A DNA stretch of 11,458 bases from an uncultured Lachnospiraceae bacterium. GTDB taxonomy: Bacteria; Bacillota; Clostridia; Lachnospirales; Lachnospiraceae. Where the stretch lies: positions 1-11,458 of the forward strand of contig CANQEB010000059.1 in NCBI GenBank assembly GCA_947594085.1, read 5' to 3'. A program made the position numbers and the translations under genes. Numbering within the stretch: the stretch's first letter is position 1; each line of letters starts with the position of its first letter. The notes under the pieces were generated by a model that had not been told where the DNA came from, searched no databases, and was given only the letters and a program-made list of their open reading frames with translations. This document shows, in pieces, positions 2,885 through 8,572 of the stretch.

Positions 2885-2939
2885 ATGCATGATATTTCGC
2901 AGTTTTCCTTCCATACTGCCAATTAACGGAGCAAAAGAT

Positions 2940-4859
2940 ATGTCCACGGGAACCGATTACGACAGACAATTCAGCCGCTATGCGGACAAAATAGACCAGA
3001 CTAAACTGTCCGCAGAAGCAAATTACGACAAACAATTCAGCCGCTATGCGGACAAGACAGGGCAGCCTCCGAAGACAGCCCGAATGAAATCTCACAGAAT
3101 GCGCATTCTGCTGGCCTTGGCCAGTATTTTTATATTGCTGTGCGCTACTCTAGCTCTCGTCTGCGTTCTTCGGAGTACAGATCCCGTCACGCTGGTGCAA
3201 AGCCTTGCCTCCAGGCGGATGGATGCTTCCTTCTTCCTCGCGGGAGATGAGACCGAAACTGAGCAGGAAACAGAGCCGGATACTTCTCTGACTATCGCCG
3301 AGGAGATTCAGACAGAAGCTCCCGACCCGGAATTTTTCCCCTATTGCACAGACGCAACCAATCCAGACAACCTAATCGAATTTACGGAAGTGGAAGTGAA
3401 CGATACGATCTTGGAAAGTGTCTCGGAATACGCTCCCGCCTCCGAAATCAGCTTCGATCCAGGCGAGGATTATACCGACGTGGATGGAATCGTCACGTTC
3501 CGCGGCGATAATTTCCGCAATCATCCCGCATACGGTTACGCGGAAATGTCGGTCGACACAATGTCCGGCATCTGGACTCAGACCACCGGCGGCCTAACCT
3601 ACGGCAGCGCGACCTGGTCTGGAAGCGGATGGACCGGGCAGCCATTGATGATGAAATGGCCACGCGCAGCCAAAGAACACATGAACATGTACGATGAGGC
3701 GAAGGAGAACGATGAGCTCGTCGAGGTGATCTATGCATGCATGGACGGATATGTGTACTTTCTCGACCTGCAAACCGGCGAGAAAACACGTGATCCGCTG
3801 TATCTCGGTTATACTTTCAAGGGAAGCGGAGCCCTCGACCCGCGCGGATATCCAATTCTGTATGTAGGCGCAGGTTACGACAGCGCCGAGGGAACGGCCC
3901 GTGTCTTCATTGTCAATCTCCTAGACTGCAGCATCATGCTAACCTTCGGAAACAATGACCCATTCTCTCTGCGTGGTTCCCTAAGTTACTTTGATTCCTC
4001 AGCCCTTGTGGACGCAGAGACCGACACGCTAATTTACCCCGGAGAAAATGGGATTCTCTATTTGATGAAGCTCAATACCTCCTACAATGAGGCGGCCGGC
4101 ACACTCTCCATTGCGCCAGATCCGATCGTCAAATGGCGCTACAGCGGTGTGCGGACCACCGTCGGTTCCTACTGGGTGGGCATGGAGACAAGTGCTGCCG
4201 TCTACAAGGGTTTTCTGTTCATCGCAGACAACGGCGGCAATCTCATGTGCCTGAACTTGAATACACTGCAGCTTGTCTGGGTGCAGGATACGCTTGACGA
4301 TACCAACTCTACCCCGGTTCTCGCGTTTGAAGACGGACACCTGTATCTCTATGTCAGCACTTCCTTCCACCTCGGCTGGAGAAGCTCAACCTCCGCGACA
4401 GTTCCGATCTGGAAAATCGACGCGGAGAACGGGGAGATCGTCTGGCAGACCGATTATGAATGCTACACAGTAGACGGTGTGTCTGGCGGTGTACAATCGA
4501 CCATCGCAGTTGGAGAACACGATCTTTCTGACTATCTTTATGTCACAGTTTCACGCACAGGCGGCCTCTACGATGGGGTTCTCGCCTGCTTAAACCGAAA
4601 TACAGGCGAGATCGTCTGGGAACACAAGGCATATTATGCCTGGTCTTCCCCGGTCTGCGTGTACAATTCAGACGGAAGCGGCCGTGTGATCTACTGCAGC
4701 TGCGCCGGCTATATGTATCTGATGGACGCCCTGTCCGGAGATGTTCTCGATGTGTGCCAGATCAGTGAAGGCTCCATCGAGGCCTCACCTGCCGTCTACA
4801 AGGATATCGCGGTGATTGGCACGCGGGCCTGCCGGATCATGGGAATCCAACTGCACTGA
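2940..4859 (+). CDS. Membrane-anchored PQQ-like beta-propeller protein of unknown function
   Basis: 639 residues from ATG 2940, chosen because GGAG (2928-2931) stands 8 bases before it. The in-frame ATG at 2889 has no binding site and lies close to the promoter. A hydrophilic cytoplasmic head of about 53 residues holds two copies of YD(R/K)QFSRYADK. A single membrane segment follows (about 55-77), with no signal-peptidase site seen, then an acidic linker rich in Glu and Thr (101-130). The large outer domain contains propeller-type repeats, such as DGYVYFLDLQTGE (269-281), LFIADNGGNLMCLNLNT (426-442), WKIDAENGEIVW (491-502), CLNRNTGEIVW (550-560) and YMYLMDALSGDV (591-602). These match the PQQ/YncE/BamB-like fold. 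In Gram-positive bacteria such proteins are mostly uncharacterised surface or assembly-scaffold proteins, and nothing here indicates a dehydrogenase. It is probably monocistronic. Confidence 0.9.
   Translation: MSTGTDYDRQFSRYADKIDQTKLSAEANYDKQFSRYADKTGQPPKTARMKSHRMRILLALASIFILLCATLALVCVLRSTDPVTLVQSLASRRMDASFFLAGDETETEQETEPDTSLTIAEEIQTEAPDPEFFPYCTDATNPDNLIEFTEVEVNDTILESVSEYAPASEISFDPGEDYTDVDGIVTFRGDNFRNHPAYGYAEMSVDTMSGIWTQTTGGLTYGSATWSGSGWTGQPLMMKWPRAAKEHMNMYDEAKENDELVEVIYACMDGYVYFLDLQTGEKTRDPLYLGYTFKGSGALDPRGYPILYVGAGYDSAEGTARVFIVNLLDCSIMLTFGNNDPFSLRGSLSYFDSSALVDAETDTLIYPGENGILYLMKLNTSYNEAAGTLSIAPDPIVKWRYSGVRTTVGSYWVGMETSAAVYKGFLFIADNGGNLMCLNLNTLQLVWVQDTLDDTNSTPVLAFEDGHLYLYVSTSFHLGWRSSTSATVPIWKIDAENGEIVWQTDYECYTVDGVSGGVQSTIAVGEHDLSDYLYVTVSRTGGLYDGVLACLNRNTGEIVWEHKAYYAWSSPVCVYNSDGSGRVIYCSCAGYMYLMDALSGDVLDVCQISEGSIEASPAVYKDIAVIGTRACRIMGIQLH
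2955..3056 (+). repeat. Intragenic duplication with 66-bp period in the propeller protein
   Basis: Two 36-bp copies (2955-2990 and 3021-3056) match at 33 positions and keep the reading frame, so the protein carries a 22-residue unit twice in its cytoplasmic head. The conserved core is YD(R/K)QFSRYADK. The position, facing the cytoplasm next to a membrane segment, suggests a duplicated binding peptide. Confidence 0.9.
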
Positions 4860-4902: not shown

Positions 4903-4972
4903 AAAAAAGAGTGTCCGAAAAGCACTGCAAAGCTCCGAAGATTCGATGTCTCTGCTATGTTTCCGAACACTC
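4903..4972 (-). terminator. Rod-like Rho-independent terminator of the small RNA
   Basis: On the minus strand, arms 4972-4960 and 4921-4909 form 13 continuous pairs (two of them G-U). An internal loop and a 6-bp helix follow (4955-4950 with 4932-4927, one G-U), and a small apical stem tops the rod. The hairpin ends directly at six U residues (4908-4903). On the plus strand the helix has mismatches and only a weak CTCTTTCTT tract, so it could at best weakly end the propeller-gene transcript coming from the other side. Confidence 0.75.
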
Positions 4973-5109
4973 TCTTTCTTATATGAACACAAGACACAAA
5001 CTCCGGCCCCAAGCTGCCTCTTCTCCTGTCCTGCCGGAACGCTCATGCCAATGTGAACGATGCAGAACAATCTCAACCGCATTTCTACTACTATTGTGTT
5101 CATAAAGAC
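4903..5109 (-). ncRNA. Candidate structured small RNA, about 207 nt, unassigned class
   Basis: Read on the minus strand, a consensus promoter is followed by an 11-bp perfect closing helix P1 (5094-5104 with 4982-4992). P1 encloses three hairpins set end to end with no spacer between them: P2 (5077-5082 with 5060-5065), P3 (5054-5059 with 5040-5045) and P4 (5033-5039 with 5001-5007). A rod-like terminator hairpin with U6 comes next. P2, P3 and P4 each contain one G-U pair and the terminator rod has three; on the plus strand all would be C/A mismatches, so the structure is specific to this strand. The P4 loop is purine-rich. No minus-strand gene follows within reach, so it is more likely a free RNA than a leader. 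Hallmarks of SRP RNA, tmRNA, RNase P RNA or 6S RNA were not recognised. It could still be a diverged known class. Confidence 0.6.
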
Positions 5110-5115
5110 AATGGA

Positions 5116-5144
5116 ATTATATAATAATTTTCAGTCTAAGTCAA
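5116..5144 (-). promoter_or_regulatory. Strong sigma-A promoter of the small RNA
   Basis: On the minus strand TTGACT (5144-5139, five of six) and a perfect TATAAT (5121-5116) are separated by exactly 17 bases. The sequence upstream of the -35 box is very AT-rich, like an UP element. Transcription should start near 5109-5112, just before the closing helix of the RNA. No ribosome binding site follows. Confidence 0.8.
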
Positions 5145-5151
5145 TTATTTT

Positions 5152-5206
5152 CGAAAAAATATCTGGCTTTTTCGTTTTTCTCCGAAATTTGCTTTTATAC
5201 AAGCAA
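5152..5206 (-). terminator. Possible weak terminator region after ispG
   Basis: Two AT-rich inverted repeats follow the ispG stop codon on the minus strand: TTGCTT/AAGCAA (5206-5189, 6-bp stem, 6-base loop) and CGAAAAA/TTTTTCG (5174-5152), the second with a T-run in its distal arm. Neither is a strong GC-rich hairpin followed by a U-tract. Some read-through from ispG into the small RNA is possible. Confidence 0.3.
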
Positions 5207-5219
5207 TTGTGTCATTTCA

Positions 5220-6275
5220 TTATTCTTTCCAGTGAAGCAGTTCCTCGCGCAGGGTACTCAAAAGCTCACTCTCCGGCACCTTGCGGACAACCTCTCCCTT
5301 CTTGATCAGAAGTCCCTCTCCGATTCCTCCGGCAATGCCGATGTCGGCCTCCTTCGCTTCGCCCGGGCCATTCACGACACAGCCCATCACAGCCACCTTC
5401 AGATCGAGCGGGATATCCTCCACCATCTCTTCCACCTGGTTCGCCAGTCCGATCAGATCGATGCGCGTGCGCCCGCAGGTGGGGCAGGAAACGACCTCGA
5501 TCCCGCCCTTTCGCAGTCCGAGCGTGCGCAGGATCAGCTTCGCGGACTTTACCTCCTCGCGCGGGTCTCCGGTCAGCGAGACACGGATCGTATCGCCGAT
5601 CCCCTGTGAGAGGATCAGTCCCAGACCGATCGCCGACTTGATGTTCCCGGACAGCAACGTCCCTGCCTCCGTGATGCCGACATGCAGCGGATGAGTCGTC
5701 TTCTGAGCCAAGAGCTCATGCGCTTTTGCACACATCAGGACGTCCGAGGACTTGATGCTGATAACCAGATTATCGTAACCCATATCCTCGATCACAGTCG
5801 TCTGTCGCAACGCGCTCTCGACAATCCCCTCCGCCGTCACGCCGTGGTCGCGCTCGACGATCTCCTTCTCAAGCGAGCCACTGTTGACCCCGACGCGAAT
5901 CGGAATATTGTGCTCCTTGGCTGCGTCGACCACCGCACGCACACGCTCTGTGCTGCCGATATTCCCCGGATTGATACGGATCTTGTCCGCACCCGCCTCA
6001 ATCGCCGCGATCGCCAGCTTATAATCAAAATGGATATCTGCTACCAGTGGAATCGAAATGCGCTTTTTGATCTCAGCAAGCGCCTGTGCAGCTTCCATCG
6101 TCGGCACAGCGCAGCGAATAATGTCACAGCCCGCAGCCTCAAGCCTCTCGATCTGAGCGACGGTAGCCGCCACATCCTCTGTCCTCGTGTTTGTCATCGA
6201 CTGGATCAGGATTGGATTGCCACCCCCGATCACGCGGTCGCCGATCTTTACCACTTTCGTATGTTCCCGGTACAT
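5220..6275 (-). CDS. ispG: 4-hydroxy-3-methylbut-2-en-1-yl diphosphate synthase (flavodoxin), IspG/GcpE
   Basis: 351 residues, a normal length for the short bacterial form. The cytoplasmic iron-sulfur enzyme converts 2-C-methyl-D-erythritol 2,4-cyclodiphosphate to HMBPP, the penultimate step of the MEP isoprenoid pathway. The N-terminal TIM-barrel part shows GGGNPILIQSMTNT (17-30), PLVADIHFDYKLA (76-88) and KIRINPGNIG (98-107). The C-terminal part carries the three 4Fe-4S cysteines, Cys264 and Cys267 in SCPTCGRT and Cys299 in MGCVVNGPGEA, plus the catalytic Glu306. AGGA lies 7 bases before the ATG. It starts 107 bp after the ppk stop codon, in the same direction. A weak hairpin and AT-rich, promoter-like sequence in that gap leave open whether it is co-transcribed or has its own promoter. 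Confidence 0.98.
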   Translation of the reverse strand: MYREHTKVVKIGDRVIGGGNPILIQSMTNTRTEDVAATVAQIERLEAAGCDIIRCAVPTMEAAQALAEIKKRISIPLVADIHFDYKLAIAAIEAGADKIRINPGNIGSTERVRAVVDAAKEHNIPIRVGVNSGSLEKEIVERDHGVTAEGIVESALRQTTVIEDMGYDNLVISIKSSDVLMCAKAHELLAQKTTHPLHVGITEAGTLLSGNIKSAIGLGLILSQGIGDTIRVSLTGDPREEVKSAKLILRTLGLRKGGIEVVSCPTCGRTRIDLIGLANQVEEMVEDIPLDLKVAVMGCVVNGPGEAKEADIGIAGGIGEGLLIKKGEVVRKVPESELLSTLREELLHWKE

Positions 6276-6382: not shown

Positions 6383-8572
6383 TCAGTCTTCCGCCGGCTC
6401 TGCCGGGATGAACACGCGACTCCTTGTCTCCTCCGGCGCCGTCTGCGCTTGCTTCACCGCTTCCTCGCAGAAATAGTCCTGTGCACAGAGCAATGTCTTT
6501 CCCCGCTTATCGATTTTCTCGTAGCTGCCATCTGGCTGCATCACATGTGCCTTCACATTGTCCTCAAGCTGGATCTGCAGAATATGTCGCACTTTTTCGC
6601 GAATCTGGGGCGACTCTACCGGGAACAAGATCTCTACGCGCTTGTCGAGGTTGCGCGGCATCCAGTCCGCGCTCGCCATATAGAATTCCTCATCTCCGCC
6701 GTTGCGGAAGTAGAAAATACGTGCATGCTCTAAGAAGTTTCCAACGATGGAGCGCACTTGGATATGCTCGCTGATCTTAGGAACGCCAGCACGCAGACAG
6801 CAGATTCCCCGGATGATCAGGTCGATCTCCACGCCTGCCGCTGAAGCCTCATAGAGTGCCGCAATAATCTCCTTATCGCAGAGCGAATTCATCTTCGCAA
6901 CGATCTTCGCCGGCTCTCCCGCCTTCGCGTGGCGCGTCTCTCTCTGAATCAAGCGCATGAATGCATCGCGCATCCACAGCGGAGCGAGCACCAATCGATT
7001 CCAGTGCTTCGGCTCTGAGTATCCGGAAAGCATGTTGAACACTGCCGTCGCGTCCTCACCGATCGGTTCTGCGCATGTCATAATCCCACAGTCCGTGTAG
7101 AGCTTCGCCGTAGAATCATTATAATTCCCTGTGCCAAGATGCACATAGCGCCGGATTCCGTCCTCCTCGCGACGGACAACCAAAGTAATTTTGCTGTGCG
7201 TTTTTAACCCAAGCAGCCCGTAAATCACGTGGCAGCCCGCCTGCTCCAGCATTTTCGCCCAGAGAATATTGTTCTCCTCGTCAAAACGCGCTTTCAGCTC
7301 GACGAGCACCGTCACCTGCTTACCATTCTCGGCCGCCTGCGCAAGTGCCGCCACAATCGGTGAGTGACCACTGACGCGATACAAGGTCTGTTTGATCGCG
7401 AGCACGTCCGGATCCTTTGCCGCCTGTTTCACAAAGTTTACGACCGGCTCAAAAGTCATATACGGATGATGCAGCAGAATATCGCCTTTGCGGATCTGCG
7501 TAAAAATGTCTTCCTCATCATTCATGCCTGGCACACTCTGAGGCTTGTATGGTTCATAGCGATACCCATCCATTCCCTCTATACCATACAGTTTCATCAG
7601 AAATGTCAGATCCAGCGGCCCGCTGATCTTGTAGATATCCTCTTCCTTCACATTCAGCTCGGTCTTCAGGATCTTCAGAAGCTTCGGCTCCATCTTCTCC
7701 TCAATCTCCAGCCGGATTACCTCGCCCCACTGACGCTTTTTCAGCTTCTTCTCGATCTCCTTGAGCAGATCGGCCGCCTCGTCCTCATCGTACGCCAGGT
7801 CGGCATTGCGCATAATTCGATACGGGTGTGCACAGACCACATTGTAGTTCAAGAACAGTTTGTCGATATTGCGCTCGATAATCTCCTCGAGCAGGATCAC
7901 GCTGCGCTTTCCGTCCGCACCCTCCGGAAGCTGCACAATCCGCGGCAACACCGAAGGTACCTGTACCGTCGCGAACTCGGTCTTCGTCTTCCCCTTTGCG
8001 TTCTTTTCTTTCGTGTCCTTTTCTTTCGCGTCTTTCTCTTTCGTGTCCTTCTCATCCTTCTTCGAGATCAGGGCTCCGATGTTCAACGTCTTGTTTCGAA
8101 TCAGCGGAAACGGCCGCGCCGAGTCCATCGCCATCGGCGTCAAAACCGGATAGACATTCTCCTCGAAATATCGGTCCACAAACGCCTTCTGCTGCTTCGT
8201 CAGCTTCTCATGCTCCGTCACAAGCTCCAGCCCGCACTGCTTCATCAGCGGGAGCAAGGAGCGATTGTAGGTGCTGTACTGCTGCGCCACCAGCTCGTGC
8301 GCCTGCACTGCGATCGCGGCAAGCTGCTCCTGCGGCGTCATCCCCGCAATATCTTTCTTCGTATACTTCGCGTGTACCATGTCCTTCAGCGACGCGACGC
8401 GAATCATAAAGAATTCGTCCAGATTGGAGGAAGTGATACTCAAAAATTTTAACCGCTCCAGCATCGGGAGACTCTTGTCCCGCGCCTCTGAGAGCACCCT
8501 GCTGTTGAACCCGAGCCAGCTGCATTCTCTGTTGATATAATACTCCGGCTTCTCAAAATCGATCGTCGCCAT
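6383..8572 (-). CDS. ppk1: Polyphosphate kinase PPK1
   Basis: 729 residues, longer than the typical length near 690. It reversibly moves the gamma-phosphate of ATP onto polyphosphate chains. N-terminal domain: NRECSWLGFNSRVL (14-27) and SSNLDEFFMIRVA (48-60). Head domain: YPVLTPMAMD (141-150) and PFPLIRNKTLNIG (154-166). C-terminal PLD-like domains: ELKARFDEENNI (425-436), LKTHSK with His459, YVHLGTGNYND (476-486) and FLEHARIFYFRNGG with His616. The spacing of 157 residues between His459 and His616 equals that of the catalytic pair known from the E. coli enzyme (His435, His592). The extra length is mainly a Lys/Glu/Asp-rich insert at 171-197, listed separately. GGAG lies 8 bases before the ATG. 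The gene begins 63 bp after the ppx-like stop, so the two are very likely one operon. Confidence 0.97.
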   Translation of the reverse strand: MATIDFEKPEYYINRECSWLGFNSRVLSEARDKSLPMLERLKFLSITSSNLDEFFMIRVASLKDMVHAKYTKKDIAGMTPQEQLAAIAVQAHELVAQQYSTYNRSLLPLMKQCGLELVTEHEKLTKQQKAFVDRYFEENVYPVLTPMAMDSARPFPLIRNKTLNIGALISKKDEKDTKEKDAKEKDTKEKNAKGKTKTEFATVQVPSVLPRIVQLPEGADGKRSVILLEEIIERNIDKLFLNYNVVCAHPYRIMRNADLAYDEDEAADLLKEIEKKLKKRQWGEVIRLEIEEKMEPKLLKILKTELNVKEEDIYKISGPLDLTFLMKLYGIEGMDGYRYEPYKPQSVPGMNDEEDIFTQIRKGDILLHHPYMTFEPVVNFVKQAAKDPDVLAIKQTLYRVSGHSPIVAALAQAAENGKQVTVLVELKARFDEENNILWAKMLEQAGCHVIYGLLGLKTHSKITLVVRREEDGIRRYVHLGTGNYNDSTAKLYTDCGIMTCAEPIGEDATAVFNMLSGYSEPKHWNRLVLAPLWMRDAFMRLIQRETRHAKAGEPAKIVAKMNSLCDKEIIAALYEASAAGVEIDLIIRGICCLRAGVPKISEHIQVRSIVGNFLEHARIFYFRNGGDEEFYMASADWMPRNLDKRVEILFPVESPQIREKVRHILQIQLEDNVKAHVMQPDGSYEKIDKRGKTLLCAQDYFCEEAVKQAQTAPEETRSRVFIPAEPAED
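7991..8050 (-). repeat. 4 x 15-bp tandem repeat inside ppk1
   Basis: Four consecutive 15-bp units encode KDTKE, KDAKE, KDTKE and KNAKG (residues 175-194), embedded in a longer charged stretch (171-197). The insert lies in the head domain, right after the strand NIGALIS and before TEFATVQVP, so it is probably a surface loop. As the period is a multiple of three, changes in copy number would keep the frame. Confidence 0.9.

Follow-up and report, generated by a model that had tools for sequence, protein, structure and literature searches.

A putative promoter-driven structured RNA gene downstream of ispG in a group of Lachnospiraceae

Results

A candidate RNA gene follows ispG

On the minus strand of an 11,458-nt stretch of DNA from an uncultured Lachnospiraceae bacterium (contig CANQEB010000059.1; hereafter, the window), positions 4903 to 5144 hold a sigma-70-type promoter, a folded domain of about 125 nt, and a terminator rod. 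From comparison of related sequences, the interpretation of this locus as an independent, promoter-driven RNA gene, the transcription of which we infer, is well supported. Seven genomes keep promoter, domain, and rod together, and an eighth keeps promoter and domain (Table 1). Judged by sequence motifs only, the RNA has its own promoter in 8/8 copies and its own terminator in 7/7 close genomes. An initial sequence-only reading of the window had proposed a stand-alone structured RNA gene here, a proposal well supported, at the level of sequence, by the conserved promoter, domain, and rod, by compensatory changes, and by a negative Rfam search (see below).

Table 1. Predicted features of the RNA locus and its upstream neighbor, with positions in the window.
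Feature	Positions	Strand	Description	Basis
ispG (GcpE)	5223..6275	-	upstream neighbor in all 8 genomes	Pfam PF04551 E 3.9e-150; synteny
Putative promoter	5116..5144	-	-35 TTGACT 5144-5139, 17-nt spacer, -10 TATAAT 5121-5116	motif; 8/8 copies
Structured RNA domain	4982..5108	-	~125 nt	covariance models match 8/47 genus genomes
P1 5' strand	5094..5104	-	UAUGAACACAA; pairs with 4982-4992; 98.9% of cells paired	model-fitted alignment
P2 5' strand	5076..5079	-	CGGU; up to 5 bp in relatives	helix alignment
P2 3' strand	5058..5061	-	AUCG	helix alignment
P3a 5' strand	5042..5049	-		helix alignment
P3b 5' strand	5033..5038	-		helix alignment
P3 apical loop	5008..5032	-	purine-rich; core GACAGGAGAAGAGGCAGC at 5030-5013, partly kept in G003	alignments
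P3b 3' strand	5002..5007	-		helix alignment
P3a 3' strand	4993..5000	-	abuts P1 directly	helix alignment
P1 3' strand	4982..4992	-	UUGUGUUCAUA	model-fitted alignment
Terminator rod	4903..4977	-	15-bp base 4977-4963 / 4917-4903, imperfect upper part, six terminal U	fold, alignment

The TTGACT-17-TATAAT motif noticed in the sequence-only reading is present on the minus strand, 75 nt past the ispG stop, and matches 11 of 12 consensus positions. A search for TTGACN-17-TAT(A/T)AT finds a match in all eight RNA copies. In shuffled sequence the promoter scan would expect 0.9 sites of this quality per kilobase, and it also listed a second, weaker site. The RNA probably starts 7–8 nt past the -10 box. 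In the gap between ispG and the promoter (e.g., L029 of G009; about 5190–5215 in the window), a palindrome-like stretch, TTGTGCAA...TTTGCACAA, was seen by eye; it recurs in some relatives, is weaker in the window, and may be an operator or serve ispG as a weak terminator.

The rod ends in U6 at 4903, as had been read from the sequence; its base comprises 15 bp. These 15 pairs are formed in 100% of cells in six distinct sequences representing seven genomes (G003, which is not alignable here, was left out), with one pair changed on both sides, no more than shuffles give (293/500). Five or six U follow the rod in 6/8 copies and three in G005, and there are none after the last hairpin of G003. A simple terminator scan of the window gave no site at the rod, probably because the scan wants a short loop and an ungapped stem, and the rod is long and imperfect above its base.

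The 212-nt stretch folds at -78.4 kcal/mol, compared with -57.0 for shuffles (z -5.38; 0/200 as good). For the domain alone the window gives a weaker z of -2.78 (2/200 shuffles as good), or -2.41 in a second run (5/200), so much of the window's folding excess comes from the rod; seven homologues of the domain give z of -2.65 to -5.66. Mean identity across 14 close pairs, from which G003 pairs, the near-identical G365/G366 pair, and G023 were left out, is highest in the domain (0.79), followed by promoter and terminator (0.76 each), and is lower at ispG fourfold sites (0.65), in the spacer (0.58), and in the 120 nt past the rod (0.52).

The RNA is narrowly distributed

Searching 60 genomes at the DNA level, with the window's own among them, gave four relatives at 73–79% identity. 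A covariance model built from these five sequences (model R1) detects the RNA in 8/47 genus genomes, the window's included (E up to 0.1), with one match per genome. Seven copies score 127–143 bits. The eighth, G003, scores 26.8 bits (E 0.04 for that genome); with model R2 it scores 69 bits, a partly circular value given that G003 is among the sequences of that model. The G003 copy is credible mainly because its position after ispG is the same, its promoter motif reads TTGACA-17-TATAAT, and it retains the loop core on a different stem. Its identity to the other copies, only 51–56%, counts against homology; the fourfold sites of its ispG (0.54–0.61) are little more distant than those among close copies.

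The ispG gene was found in 45/47 genus genomes, and the DNA that follows it was read in 30 loci, one genome each, of which seven contain the RNA and the remaining 23 showed none on reading. The further copy, in G023, where ispG is split, is on locus L005. One RNA-less locus was tested; its next gene matches PolC models but, being truncated by the locus end, scores under their cut-off. The ispG match of G363 (G363:C136:15440-16489) contains one in-frame TGA. Six carriers have whole ispG proteins 94–96% identical to the window's, the pieces of the G023 protein are 91% and 97% identical, and the next genomes stand at 90%; by these identities the carriers look like one clade.

Sampling of genomes of the family (299 with model R1 at its default limit, 397 with model R2 at E up to 0.01) and of the order and class (295 and 391, respectively, with model R2 at E up to 0.01) returned the window's own copy only, in samples that overlap and in which 8–11 candidates were scored per genome, so that weak copies could be missed. 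An exact scan of genome contigs for the loop pattern, which is blind to copies with another loop or stem, gave 44 stretches; model R1 scores seven of these at 26.8 bits or more and five more at 12–16 bits (E 1–8.4), and does not match the rest. The seven best all belong to uncultured Lachnospiraceae MAGs with isolates labeled 'Lapin', which presumably denotes the rabbit gut.

The homologues share a three-way junction

The predicted fold common to the homologues is a three-way junction: the 11-bp P1, a short arm P2, and P3, which is long, consists of two parts, and is capped by a loop. RNAalifold, given an unconstrained MAFFT alignment of eight sequences, returns this junction with 31 pairs, six of which show compensatory change. 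Over the 28 of these pairs that were counted, 95.1% of cells pair, a value that falls to 28–51% when the partners are slid. Both sides have changed in five pairs, which 4/500 shuffles attain, and the covariation score is equaled by 7/500 shuffles; the number of further pair types is not above shuffles (481/500 reach the same number). In a model-fitted alignment, which is biased towards structure, 95.8% of cells pair and nine pairs have changed on both sides (0/500 shuffles).

Most of the support for the fold is carried by P3 (99.1% of cells paired and six pairs changed on both sides in the model-fitted alignment), and some is added by P2 (five pairs, 97.5% of cells, two pairs changed on both sides). 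Lengthening P2 by 3 bp fails across the homologues, with 66.7% of cells paired. P1 hardly varies and thus says little about the fold by itself. Since seven of the eight sequences are close kin, covariation support for a conserved junction is moderate, not overwhelming. The excess of G-U over A-C cells (19 vs 4) places the structure on the minus strand. P1 is missing from the free-folding minimum of G003, where forcing four P1 pairs costs 3 kcal/mol.

This fold differs from the one drawn in the sequence-only reading, which placed three abutting hairpins inside an 11-bp closing helix. The closing helix was confirmed, but the three hairpins were not borne out. The proposed P2 (5082-5077/5065-5060) and P3 (5059-5040) can both form in the window, and most of the latter hairpin is in the minimum-energy prediction for the window's nascent transcript, yet across the eight homologues they pair in 59.6% and 57.8% of cells, respectively. 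The proposed P4 fares better, pairing in 92.7% of cells, but makes up only the apical half (P3b) of a longer arm that continues as P3a. Zero-base linkers had been placed between P2 and P3 and between P3 and P4; the sole zero-linker step is instead from P3a to P1, on the 3' strand. Helices are conserved in related genomes, then, but partly other ones than those proposed. The earlier fold as a whole pairs in 79.6% of cells, with a covariation score equaled by 409/500 shuffles; its P2 and P3 were rejected.

A second pairing competes with the junction in some copies. For G365 and G366 the predicted minimum contains a hairpin of the P2 3' side with the P3a 5' strand, replacing P2 and P3a; the centroid fold of G366 is the junction. 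The P2 3' side repeats the P3a 3' strand (UUAUGCC; L028 of G365, L030 of G366), so the P3a 5' strand can pair with either. Of the seven pairs of the competing hairpin, all are possible in G365 and G366, six in G009, five in G016, G005, and G023, and four in the window's genome (G000) and G003. In G365 and G366, these folding predictions make a two-state switch possible.

The P3 loop as a candidate contact site

The core of the P3 loop reads GAC(A/G)GGAGAAGAGGCAGC in 6/8 copies and GACAGGAGAAGGGACAGC in G005, and the G003 loop keeps GACGG, an A-rich middle, and AAAGGCAGCA. Because the P3 stem covaries and its loop hardly changes, function is probably to be sought in the loop.

With promoter and rod motifs, a conserved fold, a conserved loop, and changing neighbors (see below) evident from sequence comparison, we favor, at a probability of about 0.55, a promoter-driven RNA that would be expressed and act in trans, the junction presenting the P3 loop to a partner. 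The sigma-70-type promoter would start a transcript of about 205 nt that ends at the rod, the putative intrinsic terminator. The 5' portion, some 125 nt, would fold such that P1 closes the domain and P2 forms a short side arm. P3, which follows P1 without a linker, may stack on P1 and display its purine-rich loop of about 25 nt as the likely contact site, the junction serving as a scaffold that presents it. The loop's partner, presumably engaged in trans, would be a protein, a ligand, or an RNA with short or dispersed contact.

As a special case of trans action, the loop might act as an antisense seed for mRNAs in a base-pairing sRNA that works without Hfq, a reading we consider rather unlikely. 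A stand-alone gene with a promoter, a rod, and a conserved unpaired loop is what this reading would have, but the complement of the loop is no more common than that of a reversed control: a loop 14-mer with at most one mismatch has 29 complementary places in eight genomes, including the RNA itself six times, and the control has 49. Only one orthologous pair (G365, G366) occurs among the 23 non-self places, within a long ORF of the opposite strand; in the eight genomes, the one 14-mer tried revealed no orthologous target close to a start codon. Conservation between G003 and the other copies, moreover, is scattered, GGCAGCA apart. An Hfq-dependent sRNA was rejected as defined, as the Hfq profile (PF17209) matched 0/47 genus genomes and 5/14 control genomes.

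Unlikely, too, is the more elaborate proposal of a new RNA class that arose in one gut Lachnospiraceae clade, where searches gave neither Hfq nor CsrA, binds a protein or metabolite through the purine-rich loop on the covarying P3 arm, and alternates between two states through the competing P2/P3a pairing predicted in some members.

That the RNA is a protein sponge or a 6S-like decoy of RNA polymerase seems distinctly improbable. Purine-rich unpaired stretches containing GGA occur in the loop and, in several relatives, also between P1 and P2. Such stretches resemble CsrA sites, and in this the RNA is like sponges of the CsrB/RsmZ type, but it has no series of GGA hairpin loops, and the CsrA profile (PF02599), which matched 3/14 control genomes, matched none of the 47 genus genomes, of which 25 have a completeness of 90% or more and contamination of 5% or less. 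A CsrA sponge was accordingly rejected; a sponge, if any, would bind another protein. With 6S RNA (RF00013) the RNA shares similar length, stand-alone organization, and single copy; it differs in its separate terminator rod and in its conserved fold, a three-way junction where 6S RNA is a long hairpin opened on both sides by a central bubble. RF00013 matches neither the window (E up to 10) nor six homologous loci (E up to 5), and the window's genome has a separate 6S gene at G000:C142, so 6S RNA was rejected as well.

Gene neighborhood

Wherever the contig is long enough, ppk1, ppx, and ispG lie upstream of the RNA, and in 7/7 close genomes a convergent histidine kinase and response regulator lie past it (the window's own proteins were the only synteny queries). 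A gene with PQQ/beta-propeller repeats (window 2889-4859) stands between the RNA and this pair in only four of the seven (G000, G005, G009, G365), so the neighborhood is in flux. In G003 (L026 about 8240-8560), the next genes are glgC and glgD, which share the RNA's strand and come about 140 nt past its last hairpin, a hairpin that has no U tract in the sense direction.

A riboswitch-like aptamer, binding a ligand and acting through the terminator or as a free-standing sensor, would account for the compact junction, the conserved loop on a covarying stem, and the place of the G003 RNA upstream of glgC and glgD. We nonetheless hold it to be very unlikely, given that the next matched gene is convergent in 7/7 close genomes, where the RNA is consequently not a 5' leader, and that the G003 RNA is set apart from glgC by a strong hairpin and some 140 nt. 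Only in G003, before glgC, might the RNA be a leader.

Coding potential and mobile elements

A sense ORF starting inside P1 is 88 aa long in the window, 19, 6, 11, 18, 17, and 19 aa in six relatives, and absent in G003; a sense peptide gene was rejected on this variation. Single frames are open across the whole region in some genomes, but no frame is open in all eight, and in G023 and G003 every one of the six frames is interrupted by stops.

On the plus strand, a frame beginning MNTRHK... (window 4983-5105) gives similar peptides over 26 codons in G000, G365, G366, G009, and G005. Its variable sites fall 6, 7, and 11 to the three codon positions, a third-position excess that random placement equals in 9.8%, and its codon differences are 32 synonymous and 36 non-synonymous in six non-independent pairs. 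In G016 the frame shifts across the loop, and in G023 it does so from about codon 19; G003 shows no such frame, and the end point varies between 28 and 118 aa. Its ATG comes right after the rod, with no visible ribosome-binding site. From these comparisons, the antisense frame is unlikely to be a gene.

The least credible alternative, to which we attach very little weight, is that there is no RNA gene and that the locus is a DNA-level inverted repeat left by a mobile element or a short peptide gene on either strand: P1 is nearly invariant, as in a terminal repeat, and the antisense peptides are similar in five genomes with a weak third-position excess, but the element is single copy in each genome and always adjoins ispG, its G-U pairs are strand-biased and its changes compensatory, and neither coding frame is maintained in all eight genomes. 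A mobile element is without support, as the RNA was matched neither in phage and plasmid records (blastn) nor in IMG/VR viral contigs (loop pattern).

Discussion

We would class the RNA as a new and apparently undescribed family with a narrow distribution, belonging to a familiar kind, the stand-alone structured RNAs of bacteria. The sequence-only reading had recognized no known class, and a scan with 4227 Rfam 15 families agrees, giving chance-level matches far below gathering scores; the only one to overlap the locus is PART1_3 (E 7.7). An Rfam search of the RNA in six relatives gave no match, and literature searches found nothing on this RNA. Sets of candidate structured RNA motifs from comparative genomics (PMC8040213, PMC8632094) share with it the type of evidence, a conserved intergenic fold without an assigned function; neither ispG nor Lachnospir- occurs in their main texts.

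Stand-alone intergenic bacterial sRNAs offer the nearest comparison in terms of a promoter motif, a length of about 200 nt, a terminator-like rod, and the lack of a conserved sense ORF. The RNA described here departs from them in its covarying junction and large conserved loop, and in that Hfq was not found in the genus (0/47 genomes) and no target was found.

A partner, if found, would raise the importance of this RNA, which otherwise counts as just another orphan. Because it appears confined to one clade, it may be a young RNA gene with a fixed place after ispG. The family has a defined fold and an evident candidate contact site, and searches of its hosts' genus turned up neither Hfq nor CsrA, the usual partners of sRNAs.
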